Shown one piece after another: positions 8,102 through 34,834 of a stretch of DNA of 64,000 nt (position 1 is the first letter of the stretch; each line of letters begins with the position of its first letter). Location of the stretch: contig JABABU010000040.1 in NCBI GenBank assembly GCA_014238065.1, positions 1 through 64,000 on the forward strand, written 5' to 3'. The translations under genes were made by a program, and so were the position numbers. This DNA comes from Actinomycetota bacterium (lineage in GTDB: Bacteria; Actinomycetota; Acidimicrobiia; Acidimicrobiales; Poriferisodalaceae). The notes beneath the pieces are model-generated. The model did not search any database and had not been told where the DNA came from. It was given only the letters and a program-made list of their open reading frames with translations.

Positions 8102-9136
8102 ATGGTCTCCTCCGACAGCTGGATTCGCGATCTACGCCCCGCCGACATCGCAGAAATCGAAGCAGCGCTCGTCGTGGTCGAGGACCGCGGGCTTTCGTGG
8201 GACGAAATCATGCCTGCCGATTTTCCGCTACCGGGAATGTCGGCCCTGTTCGACGACGTTCGTGACGAACTCGAGCACGGTTGCGGAATGTTGAAGCTAC
8301 GGGGTGTTCCCGTTGGCAACTACAACGAGGACCAGCTGCGAAAGATCTACTTCGGGCTCGGTCAGAACATCGGCTCGCCCGTGCACCAGAACCGCCGTGG
8401 AGAAGTCATGCGCTTCATCCGGGACGAGGGAACCGATGTCGGTGAGAAGTACGGTCAGATCACCACCGCGACGATGGACGACGGCAAACCGTTCCTCTCT
8501 TCCTATGCGCGCACGCTGACGAATGGGGCGCTGCGGTTTCACACCGACCGCACCGATGTCGTGAGCCTTCTGTGCGTGAACCAGGCCGCCAGCGGGGGAG
8601 TGAGCACCATCTGCAGTTCGGTATCGGTCATGAACACGATGCTCGACCGCAGACCCGACCTGACCGAGCTGCTCTACGAGCCCTACTTCCGAAGCCGGCT
8701 CGGCGAGGAGGCTCGTGTTCCAGAAGACGTGTACCCACTGCCGGTATTCGCCCAACGCGACGGCAAATTCACGAGCCACTTCTCGCTGACGTACATCGAG
8801 GCCGCTCAGAAGACCGAAGTCGTTCCGAAGCTGAGCGGTGCTCAGGCCGAGGCAATTGACGTGATGCTGGAAGTGGCGGCCGAGCTTTCGTTCGAGATGA
8901 TCCTGGAGCCCGGCGACATCCAGTTTTTGAACTCTCACGTCACGTACCACGGCCGTACTCCGTTCGAGGATGACCAAGAAGCCGGGCTCAGTCGCCTACT
9001 CATGCGCCTCTGGCTGTCGATGCCGAACAGCCGTCCACTTCCGATTGATCACGCTGTTCTGTGGCGCGACACCGAACCCGGACAGATCCGCGGCGGCATC
9101 TGCCAGATACCAGAATTGCAACATGGCGTCGACTGA
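8102..9136 (+). CDS. TauD/TfdA-family Fe(II)/2-oxoglutarate dioxygenase
   Basis: The 344-residue protein carries the non-haem iron motif as 'LRFHTDRTDVV' (His147, Asp149). The distal His is in 'NSHVTYHGRTPFEDD' and a 2-oxoglutarate-binding Arg is probably in the 'LSRLLMRLWL' segment. This is the TauD/TfdA superfamily, which hydroxylates sulfonates, aryloxy acids or similar substrates; 'GVPVGNYNEDQL' is typical of its N-terminal half. ATG 8102 follows GGAGAG with correct spacing, so the in-frame ATG at 8051 is rejected. The next gene overlaps its 3' end by 14 bp, so the two are translationally coupled. Confidence 0.85.
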   Translation: MVSSDSWIRDLRPADIAEIEAALVVVEDRGLSWDEIMPADFPLPGMSALFDDVRDELEHGCGMLKLRGVPVGNYNEDQLRKIYFGLGQNIGSPVHQNRRGEVMRFIRDEGTDVGEKYGQITTATMDDGKPFLSSYARTLTNGALRFHTDRTDVVSLLCVNQAASGGVSTICSSVSVMNTMLDRRPDLTELLYEPYFRSRLGEEARVPEDVYPLPVFAQRDGKFTSHFSLTYIEAAQKTEVVPKLSGAQAEAIDVMLEVAAELSFEMILEPGDIQFLNSHVTYHGRTPFEDDQEAGLSRLLMRLWLSMPNSRPLPIDHAVLWRDTEPGQIRGGICQIPELQHGVD

Positions 9137-9896
9137 TCCTTCCGCTGGACCCCTTGATCTCTCAGAACCTGATCCGCATCTGAGCCAGCGCGTCGCCGCG
9201 GCGTACGACCGAGCTCATCGTTCCGAATTCACTGATGCTGTGGTCGGGCCTGCAGTCGAACTTCTTGCCGAGATCGCAGCCGGTGGCGCTGCAGTCGAGT
9301 TCGCTGTCGGTACAGGGCGTATCGCGCTTCCGCTGTCCGCTGTCGGAGTCGAGGTTCATGGCATCGATTTCTCTGAACCGATGTTGGCCGAGCTACGGGG
9401 CAAGGTCGGTGCCGAACGTATCGACATCGCTGTCGGCGATATGACAACCACGCGGGTTTGCTCAGATGCATCGCTTGTGTATCTGGTGTTCAACACCATC
9501 ACGAACCTGCGAGCCCAGGCCCAGCAGGTCGAATGTTTCCGGAATGCTGCTGCCCATCTCGCACCGGGTGGCCGGTTCGTCATCGAGAACGACGTGCCGA
9601 TCCTTCGGAACCTGCCGCCAGGAGAGACCCTTCACCCCTTCGACGTGTCGGCTGAACATCTCGGCTTCGACGAGTACGTCGACTACGTGAACCAGATCTC
9701 GATCTCGCGCCACTACTTCATCAACGGCGATCGGGTCCGGGTATCGGCCGGTGCGTTCCGCTACGTGTGGCCTTCGGAGCTCGACTTGATGGCACAGATC
9801 GCAGGAATGGAGCTCGAGTCACGCTGGGCCGATTGGCATCGAGCCCCGTTCACGGGAGAATCTCGATCGCACGTTTCGGTCTGGCGAAAGCCCTAG
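9123..9896 (+). CDS. SAM-dependent methyltransferase
   Basis: A 257-residue class I methyltransferase. Motif I is degenerate: 'GAAVEFAVGTGRIALPLS', followed by 'VEVHGIDFSEPMLAEL', 'IAVGDMTT', 'LVYLVFNTITNLRAQ' and 'HLAPGGRFVIEND'. Substrate unknown. It starts inside the last codons of the upstream dioxygenase gene (ATG 9123), so the two are very likely one operon and may act on the same compound. Confidence 0.85.
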   Translation: MASTDPSAGPLDLSEPDPHLSQRVAAAYDRAHRSEFTDAVVGPAVELLAEIAAGGAAVEFAVGTGRIALPLSAVGVEVHGIDFSEPMLAELRGKVGAERIDIAVGDMTTTRVCSDASLVYLVFNTITNLRAQAQQVECFRNAAAHLAPGGRFVIENDVPILRNLPPGETLHPFDVSAEHLGFDEYVDYVNQISISRHYFINGDRVRVSAGAFRYVWPSELDLMAQIAGMELESRWADWHRAPFTGESRSHVSVWRKP

Positions 9897-10012
9897 GTCT
9901 CGACACATGACGGCATGACGATGTGCGGGCCTCGAGGCATTGATGCGCTCAGAGCCTGACGATTGAAGAACGCAGGTCCAGCGCAGTTCGCGGAAACAGT
10001 TAACGTCACGCC

Positions 10013-10804
10013 ATGGCCATGACTGAGCAGCAACGACGTGACGCAGCGGCCTCGCTCGTCGAAGCAGAGAACACCCGCAACTGGGTTCCTCCGATCACGA
10101 CCACCTACGAGGGCGCCGGTGTCGAGGACGCATATGCCATTGGCCAGTACGTCACCGACGCCAAGGTCGCTGCGGGACGAATCGTCAAGGGCCACAAGAT
10201 TGGTTTGACCTCGAAGGCGATGCGATCCACCACCGGCGCAACCGAACCCGACTACGGAACGATCTTCGACACGTGGTTCCTCGACGAAGGCTCCAAGGTC
10301 TCGATGAGCACCATGAATCGACCCATGGTCGAGGTCGAGATCGTATTCGTTCTCAAAGAGGACCTTGGCGGACCGTCGGTGAACGCGGTCGACGTCATCA
10401 GGGCGACCGACTTCATCCTGCCGGCCTTCGAGGTGGTCGACAGTCGCTACAGCGGCCGGGGCGCCGGCGTCGTCGACAGCATCGCTGATGCCGCCTCGTG
10501 CGGGTTCGTGATGGTCGGCGGCAATCCGACGCTGCTCACCGACGTGGACATTCGACACGTGGCCGGCGCGTTGTATCTCAACGGCGAGCTGGAAGAGTCG
10601 GGTACCGCAGCAGCTGTCATGGGCAATCCCGTCAACTCCGTGGCGTGGCTGGCGAGGAAACTCGACGAGTTCGGCGTCACCATGCTGGCAGGCCACTCGA
10701 TCCTGTCCGGCTCATTCGTCAGGGCGCGCACGATCGCGGTAGGCGATTCGGTACTCGCCGACTTCGGTCCGCTGGGTCAGATCAGCTTCGGGGTTGTCGA
10801 GTAG
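10013..10804 (+). CDS. 2-oxo-alkenoate hydratase (HpaH/HpcG, MhpD-like)
   Basis: The 263-residue protein belongs to the 2-keto-4-pentenoate hydratase/FAH fold. 'VKGHKIGLTSKAM', 'EPDYGTIFDTWFL' and 'RPMVEVEIVFVLKEDLGGP' with the Mg-binding Glu residues, and 'PAFEVVDSRY', are close to 2-oxohept-4-ene-1,7-dioate hydratase of homoprotocatechuate degradation. It adds water to a 2-hydroxydienoate produced after extradiol ring cleavage and gives a 4-hydroxy-2-oxo acid, the substrate of a pyruvate aldolase. The convergent rraA-type gene at 11249 may encode that aldolase, and an extradiol-type enzyme is at 13593. No dehydrogenase or decarboxylase lies adjacent. Confidence 0.85.
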   Translation: MAMTEQQRRDAAASLVEAENTRNWVPPITTTYEGAGVEDAYAIGQYVTDAKVAAGRIVKGHKIGLTSKAMRSTTGATEPDYGTIFDTWFLDEGSKVSMSTMNRPMVEVEIVFVLKEDLGGPSVNAVDVIRATDFILPAFEVVDSRYSGRGAGVVDSIADAASCGFVMVGGNPTLLTDVDIRHVAGALYLNGELEESGTAAAVMGNPVNSVAWLARKLDEFGVTMLAGHSILSGSFVRARTIAVGDSVLADFGPLGQISFGVVE

Positions 10805-10826
10805 CTGCCCGGGTTGGAGTTGTAGC

Positions 10827-11213
10827 TCAGTCCTCGATGTAGGCCACGAAATCGCAGCTGATCTGAGCTGGGGTTGCCCAATCGACCTTCATGTTGTGCC
10901 GGGCCGGCCTCGAGGCAGGATCAGGGAATCGCTCGAGCCACGGTCCATTCAGAGCCTTTCGGCTCTCCAGCGGATCCGCTACGTAGAACGTCATCTTCGC
11001 GACGTCGTCCCAGGTGCCACCTGCACGGTCCAGCATCTGGCCGACGTGCGTGAAGAGATTGTCGATCTGTCCCGCGAGCGTGTCCGGCACGTCGCGGGTC
11101 CCGGGGTCGAACGGGCCGACGATGCTCGACGTCACGTACGGACCAATTCTTGTCGCAGCAGGAATCGGATTTCCGTGGACGAGACTCTCGATGTCGATCG
11201 ATCTGCGGGGCAT
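10827..11213 (-). CDS. RidA-family (YjgF/YER057c/UK114) protein
   Basis: 128 residues. The start ATG at 11213 follows AAGGAG. The sequence 'AATRIGPYVTSSIVGPFD' followed by 'QIDNLFTHVGQMLDRAGGTWDDVAKMTFYV' and 'RPARHNMKV' is the RidA pattern, although the C-terminal Arg-Thr signature of canonical RidA is replaced. Family members hydrolyse reactive enamines/imines, and some are 2-aminomuconate deaminases in ring-cleavage pathways. It follows the RraA-type gene by 35 bp on the same strand and is probably in its operon, which makes a catabolic role more likely than housekeeping. Confidence 0.8.
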   Translation of the reverse strand: MPRRSIDIESLVHGNPIPAATRIGPYVTSSIVGPFDPGTRDVPDTLAGQIDNLFTHVGQMLDRAGGTWDDVAKMTFYVADPLESRKALNGPWLERFPDPASRPARHNMKVDWATPAQISCDFVAYIED

Positions 11214-11248
11214 CGTTTTTCTCCTTGTTGGCGTCCTTGCGGCGCCGC

Positions 11249-11968
11249 TCAGCTGTTGCGCTTCGCGAGCCATGCTTCGAACTCTGGACGGTTCTCGTCC
11301 GCGAGCGGGAAATAGCCGGTGGTCGGAGCGCCTTCTGCCACTCGCTCGATGGCGAACTCTTCGGCAATCTCCATCTTCGTCGAGGCGGCTGCGATCTCTT
11401 CCAACATCGCGGCGGGGATGACAACGGCGCCTTCACCGTCGCCGACGATGATGTCGCCTGGCATCACGGTGACGCCGGCGCATGCGATCGGAACCTGGTG
11501 CGAGAGAGGTGTGTGGAGACGGCCGAGCACCGCTGCATGTGAGGACTGGTGATACACCGGCATACCGAGGGCCTTGATGGCCGGCGTGTCGCGAAGTGAT
11601 CCATCGGTGATGACGCCGACGCAGCCTCTGTACTTGGCTCGCATGGCGTAGATGTCGCCGATCGTTCCCGCGTCGGTCTCGCCTCTGGCTTCGACGATGA
11701 GCACCTCGCCCGGCTCGATGCTCTCTGCGGCCTCGCGCTGCGCGTTCGATCCGAGCAAGCCGGCGAGATCCGGGCGGGCAGGGACGTAGCGGAGCGTGTG
11801 CGCATAGCCGATCATCGACTGGCCCTCGTTCAACGGCTTCAACCCGCTGAGAAAACAGTTCTGGTACCCGCGGCGTTGAAGCTGGCTCGTGATCGTCGCG
11901 GTCGACACCGAAGTGAGGGCTGCCTTCAGCTCGTCGGTGAGCTCTGCTTGGCGTGGCGGGATGTCCAT
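11249..11968 (-). CDS. RraA-type aldolase / demethylmenaquinone-methyltransferase-like protein
   Basis: 239 residues of the RraA fold. Marks are 'LTSVSTATITSQLQRRG', 'AGTIGDIYAMRAKYRGCVGVITDGSLRDTPAI' with the G-x-R-D substrate and Mg site, and 'VMPGDIIVGDGEGAVVIP'. RraA-like enzymes such as 4-hydroxy-4-methyl-2-oxoglutarate aldolase are class II pyruvate aldolases. Next to the hydratase, cleavage of a 4-hydroxy-2-oxo acid to pyruvate plus an aldehyde is the natural guess. It has a long N-terminal extension relative to RraA itself, as in HMG/CHA aldolases. The start is ATG 11968; it diverges from the HpaB-type gene at 12098. Confidence 0.85.
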   Translation of the reverse strand: MDIPPRQAELTDELKAALTSVSTATITSQLQRRGYQNCFLSGLKPLNEGQSMIGYAHTLRYVPARPDLAGLLGSNAQREAAESIEPGEVLIVEARGETDAGTIGDIYAMRAKYRGCVGVITDGSLRDTPAIKALGMPVYHQSSHAAVLGRLHTPLSHQVPIACAGVTVMPGDIIVGDGEGAVVIPAAMLEEIAAASTKMEIAEEFAIERVAEGAPTTGYFPLADENRPEFEAWLAKRNS

Positions 11969-12097
11969 GGATGACTCTTCTCTGCTTGGCGTCGTGGCGG
12001 TTCGCGAGATCCTATGACGTGGTCGGGCTGTGGTCGCGAAGTGAGATTGGTGACTACTGTCGGACAGGCGTTGAGGCAGTTCAAGAGGGGGAACGAG

Positions 12098-13600
12098 ATG
12101 AGCCTGAGGACGGGCGCGGAGTATCTGACGTCGCTCAAAGATGGACGCCGGGTGTACCACGACGGGCGCCTGATCGACGACGTCACCATCGAGCCTGGCC
12201 TCCGGAATACGGCGCTCACCATTGCCCAGTACTACGACATGCAGAACCGGCCCGAGCTCGAGGACCTGCTCACCTACGAGACGTCTGATGGCGAGAGAGC
12301 CCACCTGTCCTACATCGAACCGCGCTCGATCGATGACCTCCGTCGCAGGGCTGCCGCGTTCGGGGCTTGGGCAGAGGTGACCGGTGGACTCATGGGCCGG
12401 GCTCCCGACTACATGAACGCGTGCATCATGGCGATCGGCAACGCAGGTCACGTGTTTGGCATGAACGACGACCGCTTCGCGAAGAACGCGTACGACATCT
12501 ATCTGCGCTGCCGACGCAACGACGTGTGTATGACACACACGTTCATCAACCCGATGGTCGATCGCTTCACGCCGATCGTCGATCAGGAGAAGTTCATCAA
12601 TGCAGGCATCGTCGACAGGAACAGCGACGGCATCATCGTCACTGGTGCACGCATGGTCGGCACTCTGGCGCCTTTCGCAGATGAGAATCTCAGCTTCGGC
12701 GCGCCGGGGAACCTCCAGGGCTACGGCGACGAGATCTATGCGCTCGGGTTTCAATGCAGGGTCGACCACCCCGACCTCAAGTGGATATGTCGGGACAAGC
12801 TCGACGGCGAGCACTCGCATTTCGATCGACCGCTGACTGGCCGCTTCGAGGAGATGGACGCACTTGCCATCTGGGAAGAGGCCCTGATCCCGTGGGAAGA
12901 CGTCTTCATCGCGGGTGACACCCAGACGCACAACATGGCACTGCCGGGTATGAAGTTCTTCCAGTCGCTCGGCCATCACGTACTTGTGAAGAACGTGGCC
13001 AAGACGCGGTTCCTCTTCGGACTTGCTCACCTCATGGCCGAGTCGTCCCAGATCTCGCAGTTCGTGAACGTGCAAGACCGACTCGGCGACATCTTGATGT
13101 GGCTGAACACGATGGAGGCGCTCGCCATCGCTGCGGTGGAAGGCGGCGAGGTCAACCCGGCCAATGGTCTGTTCTATGCAAACGAGAACGCCATTCAGGC
13201 TTCGCTGCGGCTGTACCCGGAGGTATACCCACGAATCATCGATCACATCATCCAGCTCGGTGGAGGCGGCTACGTGTCGCTTCCTCAGGAAGCAACGCTC
13301 GAGTTGGCCGAACTCGTCATAGACCGTTACTACAAGGGAGCGAGCCAGAAGTCCGACGACAAGGTGGCGCTGTTCAGGCTGGCGTGGGACATCTGCGGTA
13401 CCGGCTGGGGTGGTCGACAGGAGCTGTATGAGCGGTTTTTCTTCGGCGACACCCAACGTATGAAGGGCATCAACTATCAGATGTACGACAAGGCAGACGC
13501 GGTCGACATGGTGGCCCGAATTCTGCAGCCGCCTCAGGATGCACAGCGAGTGGCATGGCCACAATGGATAGCCTCAGGGCTGGGAGGTAGTGATGGCTAA
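12098..13600 (+). CDS. HpaB-type flavin-dependent monooxygenase (4-hydroxyphenylacetate 3-hydroxylase family)
   Basis: A 500-residue protein of the HpaB/PheA1 acyl-CoA-dehydrogenase-like fold. It starts 'MSLRTGAEYLTSLKDGRRVY' and continues with 'RSIDDLRRRAAAFGAWAE', 'GRAPDYMN', 'FINPMVDR' and the C-terminal 'LYERFFFGDTQRM' typical of the oxygenase component. It would ortho-hydroxylate a phenol with reduced FAD supplied by a separate reductase; no HpaC-like reductase is in the window. ATG 12098 follows AGAGGGGG, so the earlier in-frame ATG at 12014 is rejected. The VOC gene starts inside its last codons, indicating coupling. Confidence 0.9.
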   Translation: MSLRTGAEYLTSLKDGRRVYHDGRLIDDVTIEPGLRNTALTIAQYYDMQNRPELEDLLTYETSDGERAHLSYIEPRSIDDLRRRAAAFGAWAEVTGGLMGRAPDYMNACIMAIGNAGHVFGMNDDRFAKNAYDIYLRCRRNDVCMTHTFINPMVDRFTPIVDQEKFINAGIVDRNSDGIIVTGARMVGTLAPFADENLSFGAPGNLQGYGDEIYALGFQCRVDHPDLKWICRDKLDGEHSHFDRPLTGRFEEMDALAIWEEALIPWEDVFIAGDTQTHNMALPGMKFFQSLGHHVLVKNVAKTRFLFGLAHLMAESSQISQFVNVQDRLGDILMWLNTMEALAIAAVEGGEVNPANGLFYANENAIQASLRLYPEVYPRIIDHIIQLGGGGYVSLPQEATLELAELVIDRYYKGASQKSDDKVALFRLAWDICGTGWGGRQELYERFFFGDTQRMKGINYQMYDKADAVDMVARILQPPQDAQRVAWPQWIASGLGGSDG

Positions 13601-14153
13601 ACGACCGGCGGGACCCGTTACACCGAGGGGCCTGAACCATCTCGTGCTCAACGTGCGAGATCTCGACGAGGCGCACCACTTCTGGTCCGACCTCCTCGGC
13701 TTTCAGCAGGTGGGCGAGCTCCACCAGCGAGAAGACGACCCTTCGCCGATGGTGATGCGGTTCTACAGCGGCGCCACCGACGACCTGAGTCACCACGACA
13801 TCGCGTTGGTCGAGCGTCCCACGCTCCCACCGCCGCCCGAGAACTGGAGCATGTCAGCCGGTGAGTGCGCGGTGAACCACATCGCCATCACCTACCCCGA
13901 CCAAGAGTCGTGGAAGCAGCAGGTCGAGTTCCTCCAAGATCAGGGCGTGAAGATCAACGTCCGCATCGATCACGGAATGACACACAGCATCTACATCAAC
14001 GACCCAAATGGATACGGGGTCGAGGTGCTTTACGACCTGCCTCGTGAGGTGTGGGGCCACGACATCGATGGCGCATTGAACTACGCCAGGTTTCTGCCAA
14101 CCGAGGGTGACGAAGTCACCGAAGAGACCGAATACGTCTCCGATTTCTCGTAG
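13593..14153 (+). CDS. VOC-family extradiol dioxygenase-like protein
   Basis: The 186-residue two-module vicinal-oxygen-chelate protein has potential iron ligands in the second module: His96 ('CAVNHIAIT'), His131 ('GMTHSIYIND') and Glu144 ('YGVEVLYD'). This is the type I extradiol dioxygenase layout in a short form. The ligand-like residues in module one are His16 and His68/69. It probably opens the catechol formed by the HpaB-type enzyme, whose gene it overlaps by 8 bp (ATG 13593 with GGGAGG). Another VOC activity cannot be excluded. Confidence 0.8.
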   Translation: MAKRPAGPVTPRGLNHLVLNVRDLDEAHHFWSDLLGFQQVGELHQREDDPSPMVMRFYSGATDDLSHHDIALVERPTLPPPPENWSMSAGECAVNHIAITYPDQESWKQQVEFLQDQGVKINVRIDHGMTHSIYINDPNGYGVEVLYDLPREVWGHDIDGALNYARFLPTEGDEVTEETEYVSDFS

Positions 14154-14167
14154 CGGACGGATATTCG

Positions 14168-16420
14168 ATGAGCATTCTCGGCAACCGCGTCGTTCGGCGA
14201 GAGGATCCGGGTTTCCTGACCGGCGCTGCGACATACGTCGACAACCTCCAACTCGAGAACGCTGCTCATCTCCTGTACGTCAGGTCGACGCTGGCGAACG
14301 GCACCATCACCGAACTCGACGTCGAGGAGTCTCGAACGGCTCCCGGCGTGATCGCCGTGTTCAGCGGCGCCGAGATTGCGGCCGAGATGGGAACGACGCC
14401 GAACGTTCTTCCCATGTTTCCTGAGGAACTGAGGCGTCCGTACGTCGCCATCGATTCCGTCAAGCATGTGGGTCAGCCAGTCGTCGCGATTCTGGCAGAG
14501 ACGATGGGTCAGGCCCTTGATGCCGCCGAACTCGTCATCGTCGACTACGACGTCCTTCCAGCTGTCGTCGACCTCGAAGACGCAATGCAGGACAACATCG
14601 TCTTGCACCCAGAATTTGGATCGAACGTGCTCGATCGCATGCCGGCGAGCGAGGCTGACTTCTCCGGTTGTGAGGTCGTCGTCGAGGCCCGTATCGACAA
14701 TCAGCGCCTCACGGGAGCACCGATCGAACCCCGGGCCGGTGCTGCGTGGTGGACCGACGACGGTCGTCTGGTCCACTACTCGGCCTGTCAGGGAGCGCAT
14801 CCGACGCGGGATCTGCTGGCCACGATCATGGGTCTCGAGAAGGACCAGGTCAGGGTCGTCGTGCCCGATGTCGGTGGGGGGTTCGGGGCGAAGTCCCGGA
14901 CCTACCCAGAAGAGCTGGCGCTGGGCTGGTACGCCAAGAAAATCGGGCGGCCGGTGAAGTGGACCGAGACCCGCACCGAGAACGTTCAGGCGATGCCGCA
15001 GGGCCGTGGCCAACTGCAGTACGCCAAGCTCGGCGGAACCAGGGACGGCGAGATCACCGCCTACCAACTCGATGTCCTGCAGGACATCGGTGCATATCCG
15101 ATCATCGGGGCTGTGCTTGCAGGGATGACGCGGCGCATGCTTACGGGAACGTACGACATTGCCAACGTCGGTTTCAGCGCCGCGAATGTTCTGACATCGA
15201 AGGTGTGCGTCACGGCATACCGAGGTGCCGGCCGGCCCGAGGCAACTGTTGCCATCGAGCGCATGATCGATCTGTTCGCCGATGAGATCGGGGCCGACGC
15301 AGCCGAGGTCCGCGCCAAGAACCTGGTGCCGAAATTCCTCGAGCCCTACACAACAGGAATCGGCACCGAATACGACAACGGCGACTATCCGGAGGCCCTT
15401 CGCCTGGCCCTTGCAGCCGTTGACTACGAGCAGATGCTCGCCCGACAGGCAGCGGTCAGGGCATCAGGCAGCTCGAACGTCCTCGGCATCGGTATCGGGA
15501 TGTACGTCGAGGTCACCTCTGGCGGACCCGGAAGCGAGTTCGGGTCGGTTGCCCTTCAGCCAGATGGTCGCGTGCGCGTACTGAGCGGAGCCACAGCGTT
15601 CGGTCAAGGTCACGACACCACCTTCGCGATGATCGTCGCCGATCGTCTCGGTGTGCCAATGGAGCACATCGACATCGTGCAGGGCGATACTGATCTGGTC
15701 GACCGTGGCGCGCTCACCGTCGGCTCGCGGTCGATGCAACTTGCCGGCACGGCGCTTGCAAACGCGTCGCAGCGGCTCATCGACCGGGCGAAACAGCTCG
15801 CGGCCGATCACCTCGAAGCCGACGTCGACGACCTCACCTTCGATTCCGGTGCGGGACGATTTCACGTCGTGGGCACCCCGGCGGTGGCTGCGACATGGCT
15901 CGACATCGCTACGGTGCTCGACGACGACCTCCGAGAGGAGCACGATTTCAGCGCACCCATGCCCACCTTTCCGTCCGGTTGTCATGTCGCCGTCGTAGAG
16001 GTCGACACCGACACGGGTGGAGTCAATCTGCTTCGCATGGTTGCCGTCGACGACGCAGGGAAGATCCTGAATCCACTCATCGCCGAAGGGCAGATCCATG
16101 GTGGACTGGCCCAAGGTATTGCTCAGGTGCTGTTCGAGGGGATCCAGTATGACGAGGACGGCAATCTCGTGACAGCCAACTTCATGGACTACCTGGTGCC
16201 GTCGGCCGCTGAGCTACCAAGCTTCGAGTTGGTACATCTCGAAACACCGACGTGGGTGAATGAGCTCGGAGCCAAGGGAGTCGGCGAGTCGGGCACGATC
16301 GGTGCTATTCCCGCGGTCTACAATGCCGTGATGGACGCGGTGTCGCACCTCGGTGTGCGCCACATGGAGACTCCGCTGACGCCAGAGAAGATCTGGCGGG
16401 CGCTGACCGGCCGCAGCTGA
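14168..16420 (+). CDS. xanthine-dehydrogenase-family large subunit, form II CoxL-like, without partner subunits
   Basis: The 750-residue molybdenum-cofactor-binding subunit has the aldehyde/xanthine dehydrogenase layout: 'RREDPGFLTGAATYVDN' at the N-terminus, 'VVPDVGGGFGAKS' (236-243), the form II signature AYRGAGR at 350-356 in place of the AYxCSFR of true CO dehydrogenase, 'GAFGQGHDT' and the catalytic 'GVGESG' with Glu707. Related enzymes hydroxylate purines, nicotinate, quinoline-type rings or aldehydes. The FeS (CoxS) and FAD (CoxM) subunits needed for electron transfer are absent from both flanks, so they must be encoded elsewhere or are not needed. It starts 14 bp after the VOC gene, so it belongs to that operon. 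Confidence 0.9.
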   Translation: MSILGNRVVRREDPGFLTGAATYVDNLQLENAAHLLYVRSTLANGTITELDVEESRTAPGVIAVFSGAEIAAEMGTTPNVLPMFPEELRRPYVAIDSVKHVGQPVVAILAETMGQALDAAELVIVDYDVLPAVVDLEDAMQDNIVLHPEFGSNVLDRMPASEADFSGCEVVVEARIDNQRLTGAPIEPRAGAAWWTDDGRLVHYSACQGAHPTRDLLATIMGLEKDQVRVVVPDVGGGFGAKSRTYPEELALGWYAKKIGRPVKWTETRTENVQAMPQGRGQLQYAKLGGTRDGEITAYQLDVLQDIGAYPIIGAVLAGMTRRMLTGTYDIANVGFSAANVLTSKVCVTAYRGAGRPEATVAIERMIDLFADEIGADAAEVRAKNLVPKFLEPYTTGIGTEYDNGDYPEALRLALAAVDYEQMLARQAAVRASGSSNVLGIGIGMYVEVTSGGPGSEFGSVALQPDGRVRVLSGATAFGQGHDTTFAMIVADRLGVPMEHIDIVQGDTDLVDRGALTVGSRSMQLAGTALANASQRLIDRAKQLAADHLEADVDDLTFDSGAGRFHVVGTPAVAATWLDIATVLDDDLREEHDFSAPMPTFPSGCHVAVVEVDTDTGGVNLLRMVAVDDAGKILNPLIAEGQIHGGLAQGIAQVLFEGIQYDEDGNLVTANFMDYLVPSAAELPSFELVHLETPTWVNELGAKGVGESGTIGAIPAVYNAVMDAVSHLGVRHMETPLTPEKIWRALTGRS

Positions 16421-16423
16421 ACG

Positions 16424-18286
16424 TCAGTCTTCGGATTCGAGGACCTTGGTGAACTCTTCCGCGAGAATGTCGGTAAGCGGCTCTGGTGCGTGGAAGAGAA
16501 AGCCCTGTCCGAGCTGACAACCGGCCGCGCTCATTGCTGTCCACTGCTCTTCCGTTTCGATGCCCTCGACGATCGTGACCATGCCAGCCCCTTTGGCCAT
16601 GGCAGCGATAGCCGACGCGAGTTCGGGAGCGCCCGGCCTGGAGGTTGCCTGCGTGATGACGCGATCGACTTTGATGTGGCTGAAAGGAACCTCGAGCAGC
16701 TGTTCCAGCGAGGCGTAGCCGCTTCCGAAATCGTCCATCGCCAGCCCGAGGCCGAGAGTTCGAAGCTGGTTCGCTGTCTCCCGCCAGATCGGCGATGAAG
16801 GAAGATGCTGCGACTCAGTGATCTCGAGGATAAGGCGCTTGGCCTCGACATCATGATGAACGAGAAGAGCGAGGATCTCTGCGGGAAGTCGACGGTGGTA
16901 GAGGTGTCGTGCCGAGATGTTGACCGCGAGGAAGTCTGACCGATCTCGCAGGCAGGGGGAGGCGAGGGCCTCGATGCCGTGGGTGACCATCGCCAGTCCG
17001 AGCGCAGGGCCCCTGCCCTGATGTTCGATGATCGGAACGAACACCTCAGGCGGAACCATGGATCCGTCTGGCTGCTCCCAGCGGGCCAAGAGTTCCAGCC
17101 CGACTGCCTCACCTGTTGACAGGTCGACGATTGCCTGGGCCCACGGCATGATCTCGCCTGATTCGAGGGCGGTGCTTGCCCTGTTACCGACCTCCAATTT
17201 CGTCTTCTCAAGCATTCGGAGTTCGTCGGTCATCTCGAGAACCTGGTGTTTGCCGAGCCGTTTTGCAAAGCGCAGGGCCGAGGCCGCCTCGCGAAACAAG
17301 TCCTCAACCGAGGACTGACCGGCAGGTACCATTGCGAGACCGATGCTCAACGATTGGGCGATTTCGAGGCCGCCGTGATCGCTCAGGTGGATCTCGAACT
17401 CGATGAGATCCTCGAAGTTGGCCGGTTCGCTGCCGGCAGCTACGAACTCATCGCCTCCGAAGCGGGCAACGATCCAGCTGGCGGGCAGATGTGCGTTGAG
17501 TAGCCTCCCGACTTCCACCAACACGGCATCGCCGACCGAGTAACCATGATTGTCGTTCAGATGCTTGAAGTCGTCGACATCGATGAACGCGCAATGCACT
17601 TCGCGGCCGCGGTCGATCAGTCGCTGGACAGACCCGATAGCAGCGTTCCGCGTCGCAAGTCCTGTCAGATCGTCAGTGCGTCGCCGCTCTTCGCTCGCGA
17701 CCCTTTTGTGGATGAGCTCTGTGGCCACCTCGGACCATGCTTGACCGCCGAGGATGGAGCTCCCACACATGAGGAGCACTGCGGCCATCGGAAGTAGTTG
17801 GAGCTCGGTCGAAAATGCTACGAGGTAGCTGACCCCATATGCGAGCACCATCACGTCGAGCGACGGGGCATCGGTCTGACTGAGGAACAGTAGGTCGGTT
17901 GCGATCCCGTACGTGACCACGAACACCAGCACCCACACCACTTTCCCGTTGGACAGCTGGTTGTTGACGAGCCACGGAAGCGCGGCCCATACAACTGTTT
18001 GAACCCAGGCCAGGAAGTCGCGCGCACGGTCGGTGGTTTCGGACATCTCGGGATGTCGGCGCTGGAACGCTTCCCACGTGAACGAGGTGAGGATCATGCT
18101 GATTGCCCAGACGAGGAGGAGCGCATTCCGGTCTAAGTCCCACAGCGCTATGGTTGCCATGACCGCGACAATGGAATCACCGAAAAACACCAGCGCGCCG
18201 ATGGCCTTGCCGTGGATGGAGAACAACTCTTTATGGGCCGAGTCGATCGCCTCGTCGCGATACCCACTCAACTCATTCTGAGCCAT
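16424..18286 (-). CDS. membrane-anchored GGDEF-EAL cyclic-di-GMP enzyme
   Basis: 620 residues. About five membrane helices occupy residues 28-185 and act as the sensory anchor. A diguanylate cyclase domain follows ('DDLTGLATR', FGGDEF at 276-281), then an EAL phosphodiesterase domain from about residue 385. The EAL motif itself reads E-L-L (398-400), and the catalytic elements NISARHL, LEITES, DDFGSGYASL, KVDRVI, EGIET and GQGF are all present. Both domains therefore look active. No RxxD inhibitory site lies upstream of GGDEF. It would control c-di-GMP level at the membrane. The gene is convergent with coxL, with only 3 bp between the stops. Confidence 0.9.
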   Translation of the reverse strand: MAQNELSGYRDEAIDSAHKELFSIHGKAIGALVFFGDSIVAVMATIALWDLDRNALLLVWAISMILTSFTWEAFQRRHPEMSETTDRARDFLAWVQTVVWAALPWLVNNQLSNGKVVWVLVFVVTYGIATDLLFLSQTDAPSLDVMVLAYGVSYLVAFSTELQLLPMAAVLLMCGSSILGGQAWSEVATELIHKRVASEERRRTDDLTGLATRNAAIGSVQRLIDRGREVHCAFIDVDDFKHLNDNHGYSVGDAVLVEVGRLLNAHLPASWIVARFGGDEFVAAGSEPANFEDLIEFEIHLSDHGGLEIAQSLSIGLAMVPAGQSSVEDLFREAASALRFAKRLGKHQVLEMTDELRMLEKTKLEVGNRASTALESGEIMPWAQAIVDLSTGEAVGLELLARWEQPDGSMVPPEVFVPIIEHQGRGPALGLAMVTHGIEALASPCLRDRSDFLAVNISARHLYHRRLPAEILALLVHHDVEAKRLILEITESQHLPSSPIWRETANQLRTLGLGLAMDDFGSGYASLEQLLEVPFSHIKVDRVITQATSRPGAPELASAIAAMAKGAGMVTIVEGIETEEQWTAMSAAGCQLGQGFLFHAPEPLTDILAEEFTKVLESED

Positions 18287-34375: not shown

Positions 34376-34834
34376 ATGAGCCACGAGAAGCGAATGATCG
34401 AAGCAGGAATCGAATTGCCAGACGGCCCAGGTCCTGCCGGACTGTACGTCTCGTGCGTGCACGTCGGCGATCTGTTGCACATAGGGGGACACGGCCCGTT
34501 TCGGCCAGAGGGCGGGTTCGTCACCGGCAAGGTGGGCGATACCGTCTCGCTCGAAGAAGCACGGCACGCTGCGAGATTGACGGGTAAGCAATGTCTTCGG
34601 TCTGCACGCATCGAACTCGGGTCACTCGACAGAGTCGTCAGGACGGTGAAGGTGCTCGGCATGGTGAACTGTGCGCCGGGCTTCAACAACACCCCCGCCG
34701 TCATCGACGGCTGTTCCGAATTGTTCCACCAGGTGTTCGGCGACGCCGGAATCCACACCCGGTCCGCAGTTGGCATGGCCGAACTGCCATTCGATATCAG
34801 CGTCGAGATCGAGGCCATCTTCCAAGTCGCGTAG
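34376..34834 (+). CDS. RidA-family protein
   Basis: 152 residues. 'GDLLHIGGHGPF' near the N-terminus and 'RTVKVLGMVNCAPGFNNTPAVIDGCSELFHQVFGDAG' followed by 'RSAVGMAELPFDISVEIEAIF' match the YjgF-YER057c-UK114 group with the RidA Arg in 'TRSAVGM'. The length of 152 is longer than canonical RidA (about 128). It hydrolyses enamine/imine intermediates or has a related deaminase role. It lies 23 bp behind the exporter and is convergent with the secreted protein gene. Confidence 0.85.
   Translation: MSHEKRMIEAGIELPDGPGPAGLYVSCVHVGDLLHIGGHGPFRPEGGFVTGKVGDTVSLEEARHAARLTGKQCLRSARIELGSLDRVVRTVKVLGMVNCAPGFNNTPAVIDGCSELFHQVFGDAGIHTRSAVGMAELPFDISVEIEAIFQVA

Follow-up and report, generated by a model that had tools for sequence, protein, structure and literature searches.

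Six contiguous genes of an Acidimicrobiia genome are, judging from their sequences, probably part of a conserved neighbourhood for a variant aerobic meta-cleavage route. They lie within a 64,000-nucleotide stretch of DNA (hereafter, the window), and we observe the family-level identities of their products, the conservation of key residues and linkage across genera. The predicted route provides a testable gene set for phenolic degradation by uncultured Acidimicrobiia and, in part, Dehalococcoidia, and it joins a one-domain extradiol dioxygenase, a lone CoxL and a pathway-bound Rid protein, a connection not visible from family names alone.

Locus organization and protein families

The six open reading frames, all intact, lie side by side at 10013–16420 (Table 1), and the contiguity described in an earlier note on this DNA is borne out by the open frames, their coordinates and the family matches. 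The starts of RidA, RraA and HpaB are our own choice, as the mechanical open reading frames begin further upstream. The genes form the strand runs hydratase (+), RidA-RraA (−) and HpaB-VOC-CoxL (+): hydratase and RidA converge with 22 bp between their stops, RidA and RraA are separated by 35 bp, RraA and HpaB diverge with 129 bp between their starts, the HpaB and VOC frames overlap by 11 bp, and a 14-bp gap separates VOC from CoxL. Spacing and strands thus indicate contiguous genes, yet three strand runs rather than one operon; by its coordinates, the divergent region is likely a promoter region.

Table 1. Features of the locus, in window coordinates
Feature	Position	Strand	Assignment
Hydratase	10013–10804	+	2-oxo-4-enoate hydratase, HpaH/MhpD family; would hydrate the dienoate product (predicted)
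RidA	10827–11213	−	Rid-family protein, PF01042; predicted imine/enamine hydrolase
RraA	11249–11968	−	RraA-like, PF03737; predicted pyruvate-releasing aldolase of HMG/CHA aldolase type
RraA-HpaB intergenic region	11969–12097		129 bp, divergent; defined by coordinates only
HpaB	12098–13600	+	Flavin-dependent phenol monooxygenase, oxygenase component; PF11794 + PF03241
VOC	13590–14153	+	One-domain, PF00903; predicted type I extradiol ring-cleavage dioxygenase
CoxL	14168–16420	+	Lone form II molybdenum hydroxylase large subunit; PF01315/PF02738/PF20256; predicted aldehyde oxidase

In the profile scan none of the six proteins reached an NCBIfam equivalog cut-off. The model nearest to HpaB is HpaB-1 (TIGR02309; 394.3 bits, under the cut-off of 480.2) and 2yyg is a solved relative (E 9.7e-100, 338 bits); a 4-hydroxybutyryl-CoA dehydratase/vinylacetyl-CoA isomerase was ruled out by scores of 51 and 31 bits versus the 338 bits for 2yyg. 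R101, Y105 and H147, invariant in 25/25 aligned sequences, retain the catalytic triad Arg100, Tyr104 and His142 given for Thermus HpaB in the accessible part of PMC10537072. The same source assigns 4HPA carboxylate binding to Ser197-Thr198, in whose place the window protein has G204-N205 in a pairwise alignment with Thermus HpaB as the sole 4HPA hydroxylase compared.

In the VOC protein, H17, H69, H97, H128, Y135 and E145 are invariant in all 27 aligned sequences, and the solved-structure matches of its structure model (pLDDT 88.5; Foldseek) are mainly extradiol dioxygenases, together with a glyoxalase in the first row, methylmalonyl-CoA epimerases and HPPD. Taking the roles from two-domain enzymes, we assume that H17, H97 and E145 form the 2-His-1-Glu metal site and that H69, H128 and Y135 are catalytic, with the 128–135 loop presumably two residues shorter than in XylE. 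Residue set and model resemblance together predict a one-domain type I extradiol dioxygenase. Its VOC fold, single-domain length and metal and catalytic residues probably correspond to those of the family I.1 enzymes, among which PMC4250580 names BphC2 and BphC3 of Rhodococcus globerulus P6 and BphC6 of RHA1. The match 9u42, named a homogentisate 1,2-dioxygenase, was rejected as a sign of homogentisate cleavage, since it has no His at the place of H69.

No Pfam family matches the hydratase at E 0.01; its nearest model is TIGR02312 HpaH (249.3 bits, under the cut-off of 351.5) and its best solved relative is 2eb4, a 2-oxo-hept-3-ene-1,7-dioate hydratase (E 8.8e-56). E107, E109 and E140, which we take to be the metal-binding Glu triad of the HpaH/MhpD type, are invariant in 12/12 aligned sequences, an alignment from which the orthologues G059, G159 and G268 are absent. 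RraA clears the cut-off of the PRK08245 subfamily (249 bits versus 208) and stays under those of PRK09262 (98.4 versus 179) and ligK (90.4 versus 304.5), and its solved relatives are 5x15 and 3noj. All five RraA proteins tested, a set without those of L257–L260, carry D-X20-R-D, presumably the motif of HMG/CHA-type (RraA-fold) pyruvate aldolases. RidA matches PF01042 at 37.7 bits, and its structure model has a pLDDT of 71.4, with residues 1–21 below 50. Its Arg105, invariant in 8/8 aligned sequences, corresponds to a residue with a role in the Rid imine hydrolases (RidA/Rid1-3), according to the part of PMC4433059 available to us; the C-terminal end, where these enzymes have Glu120, appears by eye to read differently.

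CoxL scores highest against models and structures of the glyceraldehyde- and CO-dehydrogenase types (614 and 476 bits; NF041018 at 614, under the cut-off of 790). With 6-hydroxypseudooxynicotine dehydrogenase (388 bits) and quinoline 2-oxidoreductase (367 bits) not far below, the scores are compatible with more than one substrate class. Two presumed form II CoxL features are present: AYRGAGR at 350 as the loop of the active site, and the Glu within GxKGxGE, here GAKGVGESG at 701. That CoxL is a lone subunit, as the earlier note had it, agrees with its neighbours: it is flanked by VOC and by a gene at 16424 for a GGDEF/EAL-type protein (named by eye), with no CoxS or CoxM beside it, and the genome's eight CoxS-type [2Fe-2S] matches all lie on contigs other than that of the locus (C26). 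A candidate shared partner for lone CoxL proteins, the orphan gene at G000:C10, was dropped as a CoxS-CoxM fusion because it holds no CoxM after all; it encodes a CoxS-type domain plus a tail with weak molybdenum-subunit similarity. Orphans of this type occur in 15/15 genomes chosen for close CoxL proteins or kinship (two partial only) and also in 8/13 controls.

Linkage in other genomes

Conserved synteny, whose absence the earlier note had named beforehand as refuting, was found outside the source genome. In a sample of 298 genomes from the order, 12 carry the hydratase, all 12 with a further module gene nearby, and at each of the 13 RidA places with at least 50% identity a hydratase and/or RraA gene lies within 1.5 kb, as against 0/3 at weaker places (<50% identity). 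As the RidA query alignment was built from eight Rid proteins already linked to module genes, and nine of the 13 places had already come up with the hydratase as bait, the new evidence amounts to four places. On the 13/13 linkage we reject RidA as a chance neighbour, despite nine Rid-family matches in its own genome, and the Rid protein belongs to a subfamily tied to hydratase and RraA.

Across uncultured Acidimicrobiia the gene set reappears in differing composition, with tight recurring pairs and triads whose frames overlap or adjoin; among the loci read, only the window holds all six genes together. VOC-HpaB adjacency is present in Dehalococcoidia too, and locus L042 of a relative genome unites VOC, HpaB-type, flavin reductase, HpaE-type, HpaG-like FAH, hydratase and HpaI/GarL-type genes. 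At L257 about 2.4 kb separate RidA-RraA-VOC from a gene that looks kynureninase-like by eye, and at L258–L260 RraA-RidA stands beside an apparent protocatechuate ortho-cleavage set (by eye). The final gene calling was codon-trained and misses genes in lower-GC DNA, as seen in L257.

CoxL is the loosest member of the module. Among the 30 CoxL loci L133–L162, own locus included, hydratase, HpaB or VOC lies within 1.5 kb only at the own locus and L134; CoxL relatives adjoin the hydratase at L175, L204 and L205, the last being the linked CoxL of the genome that contains L136, which itself is not hydratase-linked. The close HpaB subfamily is rare, with one of 395 genomes in the class sample (the own genome) at E 1e-150 and four of 298 in the order sample at no less than 79% identity. 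In the sister genus, HpaB (79–82%) and a hydratase-RidA pair sit on separate contigs, with Rieske dioxygenase genes as HpaB neighbours, and at 64 further HpaB loci (35–44% identity) none of the other five module genes was seen.

Proposed route and alternative readings

We infer each catalytic step, the order of the steps and the substrate as follows. HpaB would likely hydroxylate a phenolic ring in the ortho position, with a flavin reductase presumably acting in trans, and VOC would likely open the resulting catechol. Oxidation of the resulting semialdehyde would fall to the lone CoxL, whose [2Fe-2S] and FAD subunits would have to be encoded at other genomic sites. Rid would act hydrolytically on the ring-fission product in its imine or enamine form, and the hydratase together with the RraA-type aldolase would break the chain to give pyruvate and a smaller carbonyl compound. 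More tentatively, and with appreciable doubt, we suggest that a CoxL large subunit without small subunits of its own replaces the NAD-dependent dehydrogenase and that a dedicated Rid subfamily denitrogenates or tautomerises the ring-fission acid; jointly, these would define an undescribed meta-cleavage branch in uncultured Acidimicrobiia, its upper enzymes common to Dehalococcoidia. If true, these roles would amount to new ways of carrying out two standard meta-cleavage steps that elsewhere fall to other enzymes. We found no description of this gene set in the titles and abstract openings searched, a coverage outside which most subscription journals fall.

The substrate could instead be a nitrogen ring of aminophenol or hydroxypyridine type, with RidA resembling a 2-aminomuconate deaminase and CoxL hydroxylating a heterocycle or oxidising an amino-semialdehyde. 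The retained Arg105, the two enzymes of nitrogenous substrates among the nearer solved CoxL relatives and, as a weak hint, the kynureninase-like gene of L257 point this way, as does the tie of Rid to hydratase and aldolase genes, which parallels that of amnD to amnF/amnE/amnG in 2-aminophenol clusters (PMC3790839 and PMC6742747, each in part). Such a substrate is nonetheless unlikely, given that the 2-aminophenol cluster uses a 2-aminophenol 1,6-dioxygenase, with separate subunits according to the accessible text of PMC3790839, and not HpaB with a one-domain VOC, that the top CoxL scores are of the glyceraldehyde- and CO-dehydrogenase types, and that the L042 relatives of HpaB, VOC and hydratase sit in an hpa-like set. 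Of the earlier proposal, the ring-cleavage locus of HpaB, VOC, hydratase, RraA and RidA is supported, on families and synteny, and the nitrogen-ring substrate is not: a hydratase nearest HpaH/HpcG and the L042 set lend no support to its argument from RidA plus a molybdenum hydroxylase against homoprotocatechuate, and the CoxL scores fit more than one substrate class. Rid proteins also clear stray imines, so a Rid gene alone is no proof of a nitrogenous substrate.

We find it similarly improbable that the locus serves the ordinary 4-hydroxyphenylacetate/homoprotocatechuate pathway, with HpaC, HpaE, HpaG and HpaI partners elsewhere and CoxL and RidA as bystanders. The nearest models of hydratase and HpaB and the relatives in L042 are consistent with it, and outside the locus the genome has three flavin reductase, four HpaG-C-type and eight HpaE-type matches (one weak); however, no HpaG or HpaE match reaches its cut-off, G204-N205 replaces the Ser-Thr pair of the Thermus enzyme, and the consistent linkage of RidA makes a bystander role unlikely. 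Dehydrogenase-branch meta-cleavage routes need a tautomerase, and none was recognised by eye at the listed loci, which would suit a Rid protein that replaces HpaF/4-oxalocrotonate tautomerase in the same pathway without nitrogen chemistry. We know of no Rid protein that acts in this way, and regard the idea as quite unlikely. Retention of Arg105 fits imine hydrolysis instead (PMC4433059, in the portion available). Least probable of all, loosely clustered aromatic genes of different routes, with a VOC that does not cleave rings, would explain why module parts occur in differing combinations beside other aromatic genes and why VOC structure matches take in glyoxalases and epimerases, but hardly the recurring tight pairs and triads or the extradiol residue set complete in every aligned VOC protein.

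Relation to known pathways

The proposed variant meta-cleavage route shares with the hpa pathway an HpaB-type oxygenase, a ring-cleavage dioxygenase, an HpaH-type hydratase and a pyruvate aldolase. It differs in that the locus lacks HpaC-, HpaE- and HpaG-type genes, and no HpaF- or HpaI-type gene was recognised: in genome searches the locus contig yielded neither a flavin reductase nor an HpaG-C match, its sole HpaE-type match lies at 101 kb, and none of the 20 proteins scanned at 0.8–25.7 kb is of HpaC, HpaE, HpaG or HpaI type. The aldolase is moreover of RraA type, RidA and a lone CoxL are added, the HpaB-1 and HpaH cut-offs are not reached, and HpaB lacks the Ser-Thr pair that anchors the carboxylate in the Thermus enzyme. 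An RraA-family aldolase with D-X20-R-D recalls the LigK-type CHA aldolase of protocatechuate/gallate 4,5-cleavage, where the ring-cleavage enzyme is of LigAB type, although the locus RraA falls under both the ligK and PRK09262 cut-offs. Unlike the amn route of modified 2-aminophenol meta-cleavage, the locus pairs HpaB with a one-domain VOC, and no AmnBA-type dioxygenase or AmnC-type dehydrogenase was recognised; common to both is a Rid-family protein whose gene is linked to those for an aldolase and a 2-oxoenoate hydratase.

Gene layout of the module

The window spans bases 1-64000 of C26, a contig in a draft genome of 3.94 Mb, and the six contiguous genes described in the earlier note are all intact and lie where it had placed them, their families being borne out by Pfam and NCBIfam. 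The HpaB and VOC reading frames overlap by 11 bp, the VOC-CoxL and RidA-RraA gaps measure 14 bp and 35 bp, respectively, and 129 bp separate the divergent RraA and HpaB genes. We looked for a firm tie between the module and the TauD-like and methyltransferase genes upstream and found none; a 35-36% relative of the TauD-like gene adjoins an HpaB of another clade in four loci (L026, L027, L029 and L031). None of the six module proteins reaches an NCBIfam equivalog cut-off, and no description of the six-gene set was recognised in the literature, as judged by titles and the starts of abstracts.

Coordinates of the module genes and of other features mentioned in the text
Feature	Location	Strand	Remark
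TauD-like gene	8108-9136	+	upstream of hydratase, same strand
Methyltransferase	9120-9896	+	upstream of hydratase, same strand
Hydratase	10013-10804	+	NCBIfam family
RidA	10827-11213	-	Pfam/NCBIfam families
RraA	11249-11968	-	Pfam/NCBIfam families
HpaB	12098-13600	+	Pfam/NCBIfam families
VOC	13590-14153	+	Pfam/NCBIfam families
CoxL	14168-16420	+	Pfam/NCBIfam families
Open frame, 336 aa	4494-5504	-	beside luciferase-like gene; no Pfam match at E 1
Second Rid-family match	34427-34819	+	within longer open frame
HpaB in loci L053-L058	about 10001-11500; L057 from 2654
CoxS-type fusion gene	L181:7102-9105		contig C10 of own genome
Kynureninase-like gene	L257:13562-14812		by eye; ~2.4 kb from a RidA-RraA-VOC set

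Recurrence of the gene neighbourhood

Synteny beyond the genome itself, whose absence would, by the earlier note, have refuted its reading, is present with the hydratase, RidA and HpaB baits alike. At a threshold of E 1e-85, the hydratase occurs in 12 of the 298 genomes of the order, and all 12, including our own with all six genes, carry at least one further module gene in the stretch read: RidA at 73-76% identity (G059, G100, G159, G184, G268), RidA 59%, RraA 61% and a distant HpaB (G203), RraA 61% and RidA 50% (G178), VOC 41%, HpaB-like pieces, RidA 57% and RraA 63% (G024), VOC 46% and HpaB 31% (G234), or a lone CoxL at 51% (G152, G040).

The RidA search, with a query alignment built from linked Rid proteins, yields 16 places in 15 of the 298 genomes; hydratase and/or RraA lies within 1.5 kb at all 13 places of at least 50% identity and at none of the three weaker ones (38-42%). 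The hydratase search had already brought up nine of the 13, and the four new ones (G249, G040, G121, G152) all adjoin RraA; in G249, which shares its family with the window, RidA (70%) and RraA (78%) run divergently to VOC (73%). The counts lack independence, since five of the 13 places belong to one genus and four to another; with nine Rid-family matches in the 3.9 Mb of our genome, a chance neighbourhood would be uncommon. In L258-L260, RraA-RidA adjoin look-alikes (by eye) of protocatechuate 3,4-dioxygenase, carboxymuconate cycloisomerase and 4-hydroxybenzoate hydroxylase.

Against wide recurrence, HpaB at 79% or more is found in 4 of the 298 order genomes, and its close subfamily in 1 of 395 class-sample genomes, namely our own. 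Among the 80 loci read from the HpaB search in named genomes, L057 holds RraA (65%), hydratase (76%), HpaB (73%), CoxL (44%) and RidA (59%) within 10 kb, and L056 holds hydratase (75%), HpaB (73%) and VOC (67%). Of the ten Dehalococcoidia/Chloroflexi loci (L059-L068), nine have VOC immediately ahead of HpaB, and in L067 it lies 2.1 kb off; none of the other five module genes was seen around HpaB of 35-44% in 64 loci (L069-L132). Contig sizes in common number eight for VOC and HpaB matches, five for HpaB and RidA and two for all three, over the first 45 of 120 HpaB matches, and eight for VOC and RidA; these shared sizes hint at further linkage, and the smallest could be coincidence. In the sister genus (L053-L055), HpaB follows Rieske dioxygenase alpha and beta genes and an SDR and precedes a luciferase-like gene, as in L058 (Pfam for L053, by eye for L055 and L058), and the hydratase-RidA pair sits on a different contig; the module is accordingly deployed in parts.

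A luciferase-like monooxygenase gene follows HpaB in all six other actinobacterial loci with HpaB of at least 73% (L053-L058), and one protein, P0219, combines both Pfam domains. The luciferase-like protein could serve HpaB as a reductase or as a second oxygenase.

The member that recurs least reliably, and a further point against the synteny, is CoxL: among 30 CoxL loci, own included, hydratase, HpaB or VOC lies within 1.5 kb only in our locus and L134. Hydratase-CoxL linkage in two separate supported CoxL clades (the window with L175; L204 with L205), between which the branching is not settled, would fit recurrent coupling. Our genome has 14 MoCoBD_2 matches (about 12 CoxL-type genes) versus 8 CoxS-type matches, and several of its CoxL genes seem to stand alone. 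One orphan CoxS-type [2Fe-2S] domain is fused to a long tail with weak molybdenum-subunit similarity; each of the 15 loci listed has a Rid gene next after this fusion, and none of these stretches shows a CoxL match.

Proposed route and known pathways

The six-gene set would work like a meta-cleavage pathway, and we infer a likely order of HpaB, VOC, CoxL, Rid, then hydratase and RraA. HpaB, with a flavin reductase encoded elsewhere (our genome has three candidates), would yield a catechol that VOC would open; CoxL with trans-encoded partners would oxidise the semialdehyde, Rid would hydrolyse the ring-fission product in an imine or enamine form, with nitrogen supplied either by the substrate or by free ammonia, and hydratase and RraA would release pyruvate. 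As previously remarked, neither a hydrolase nor a decarboxylase step is encoded locally; the genome's four FAH-type genes all lie outside the locus.

The earlier note had favoured a nitrogen-containing ring. The 2-aminophenol modified meta-cleavage (amn) pathway offers precedent for a Rid protein beside hydratase and aldolase (PMC3790839), whereas locus L042 shows relatives of VOC and hydratase in a setting like that of 4-hydroxyphenylacetate (hpa) meta-cleavage: an HpaI/GarL-type aldolase, HpaE-type dehydrogenase, hydratase, HpaG-like FAH, VOC, HpaB-type oxygenase and flavin reductase (best model HsaB) stand side by side, none of the set's proteins reaching the hpa cut-offs. Given these opposing precedents, we leave the substrate undecided and do not adopt the nitrogen ring. 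Compared with the hpa and amn pathways as defined, the module would resemble meta-cleavage in its working, yet is a member of neither.
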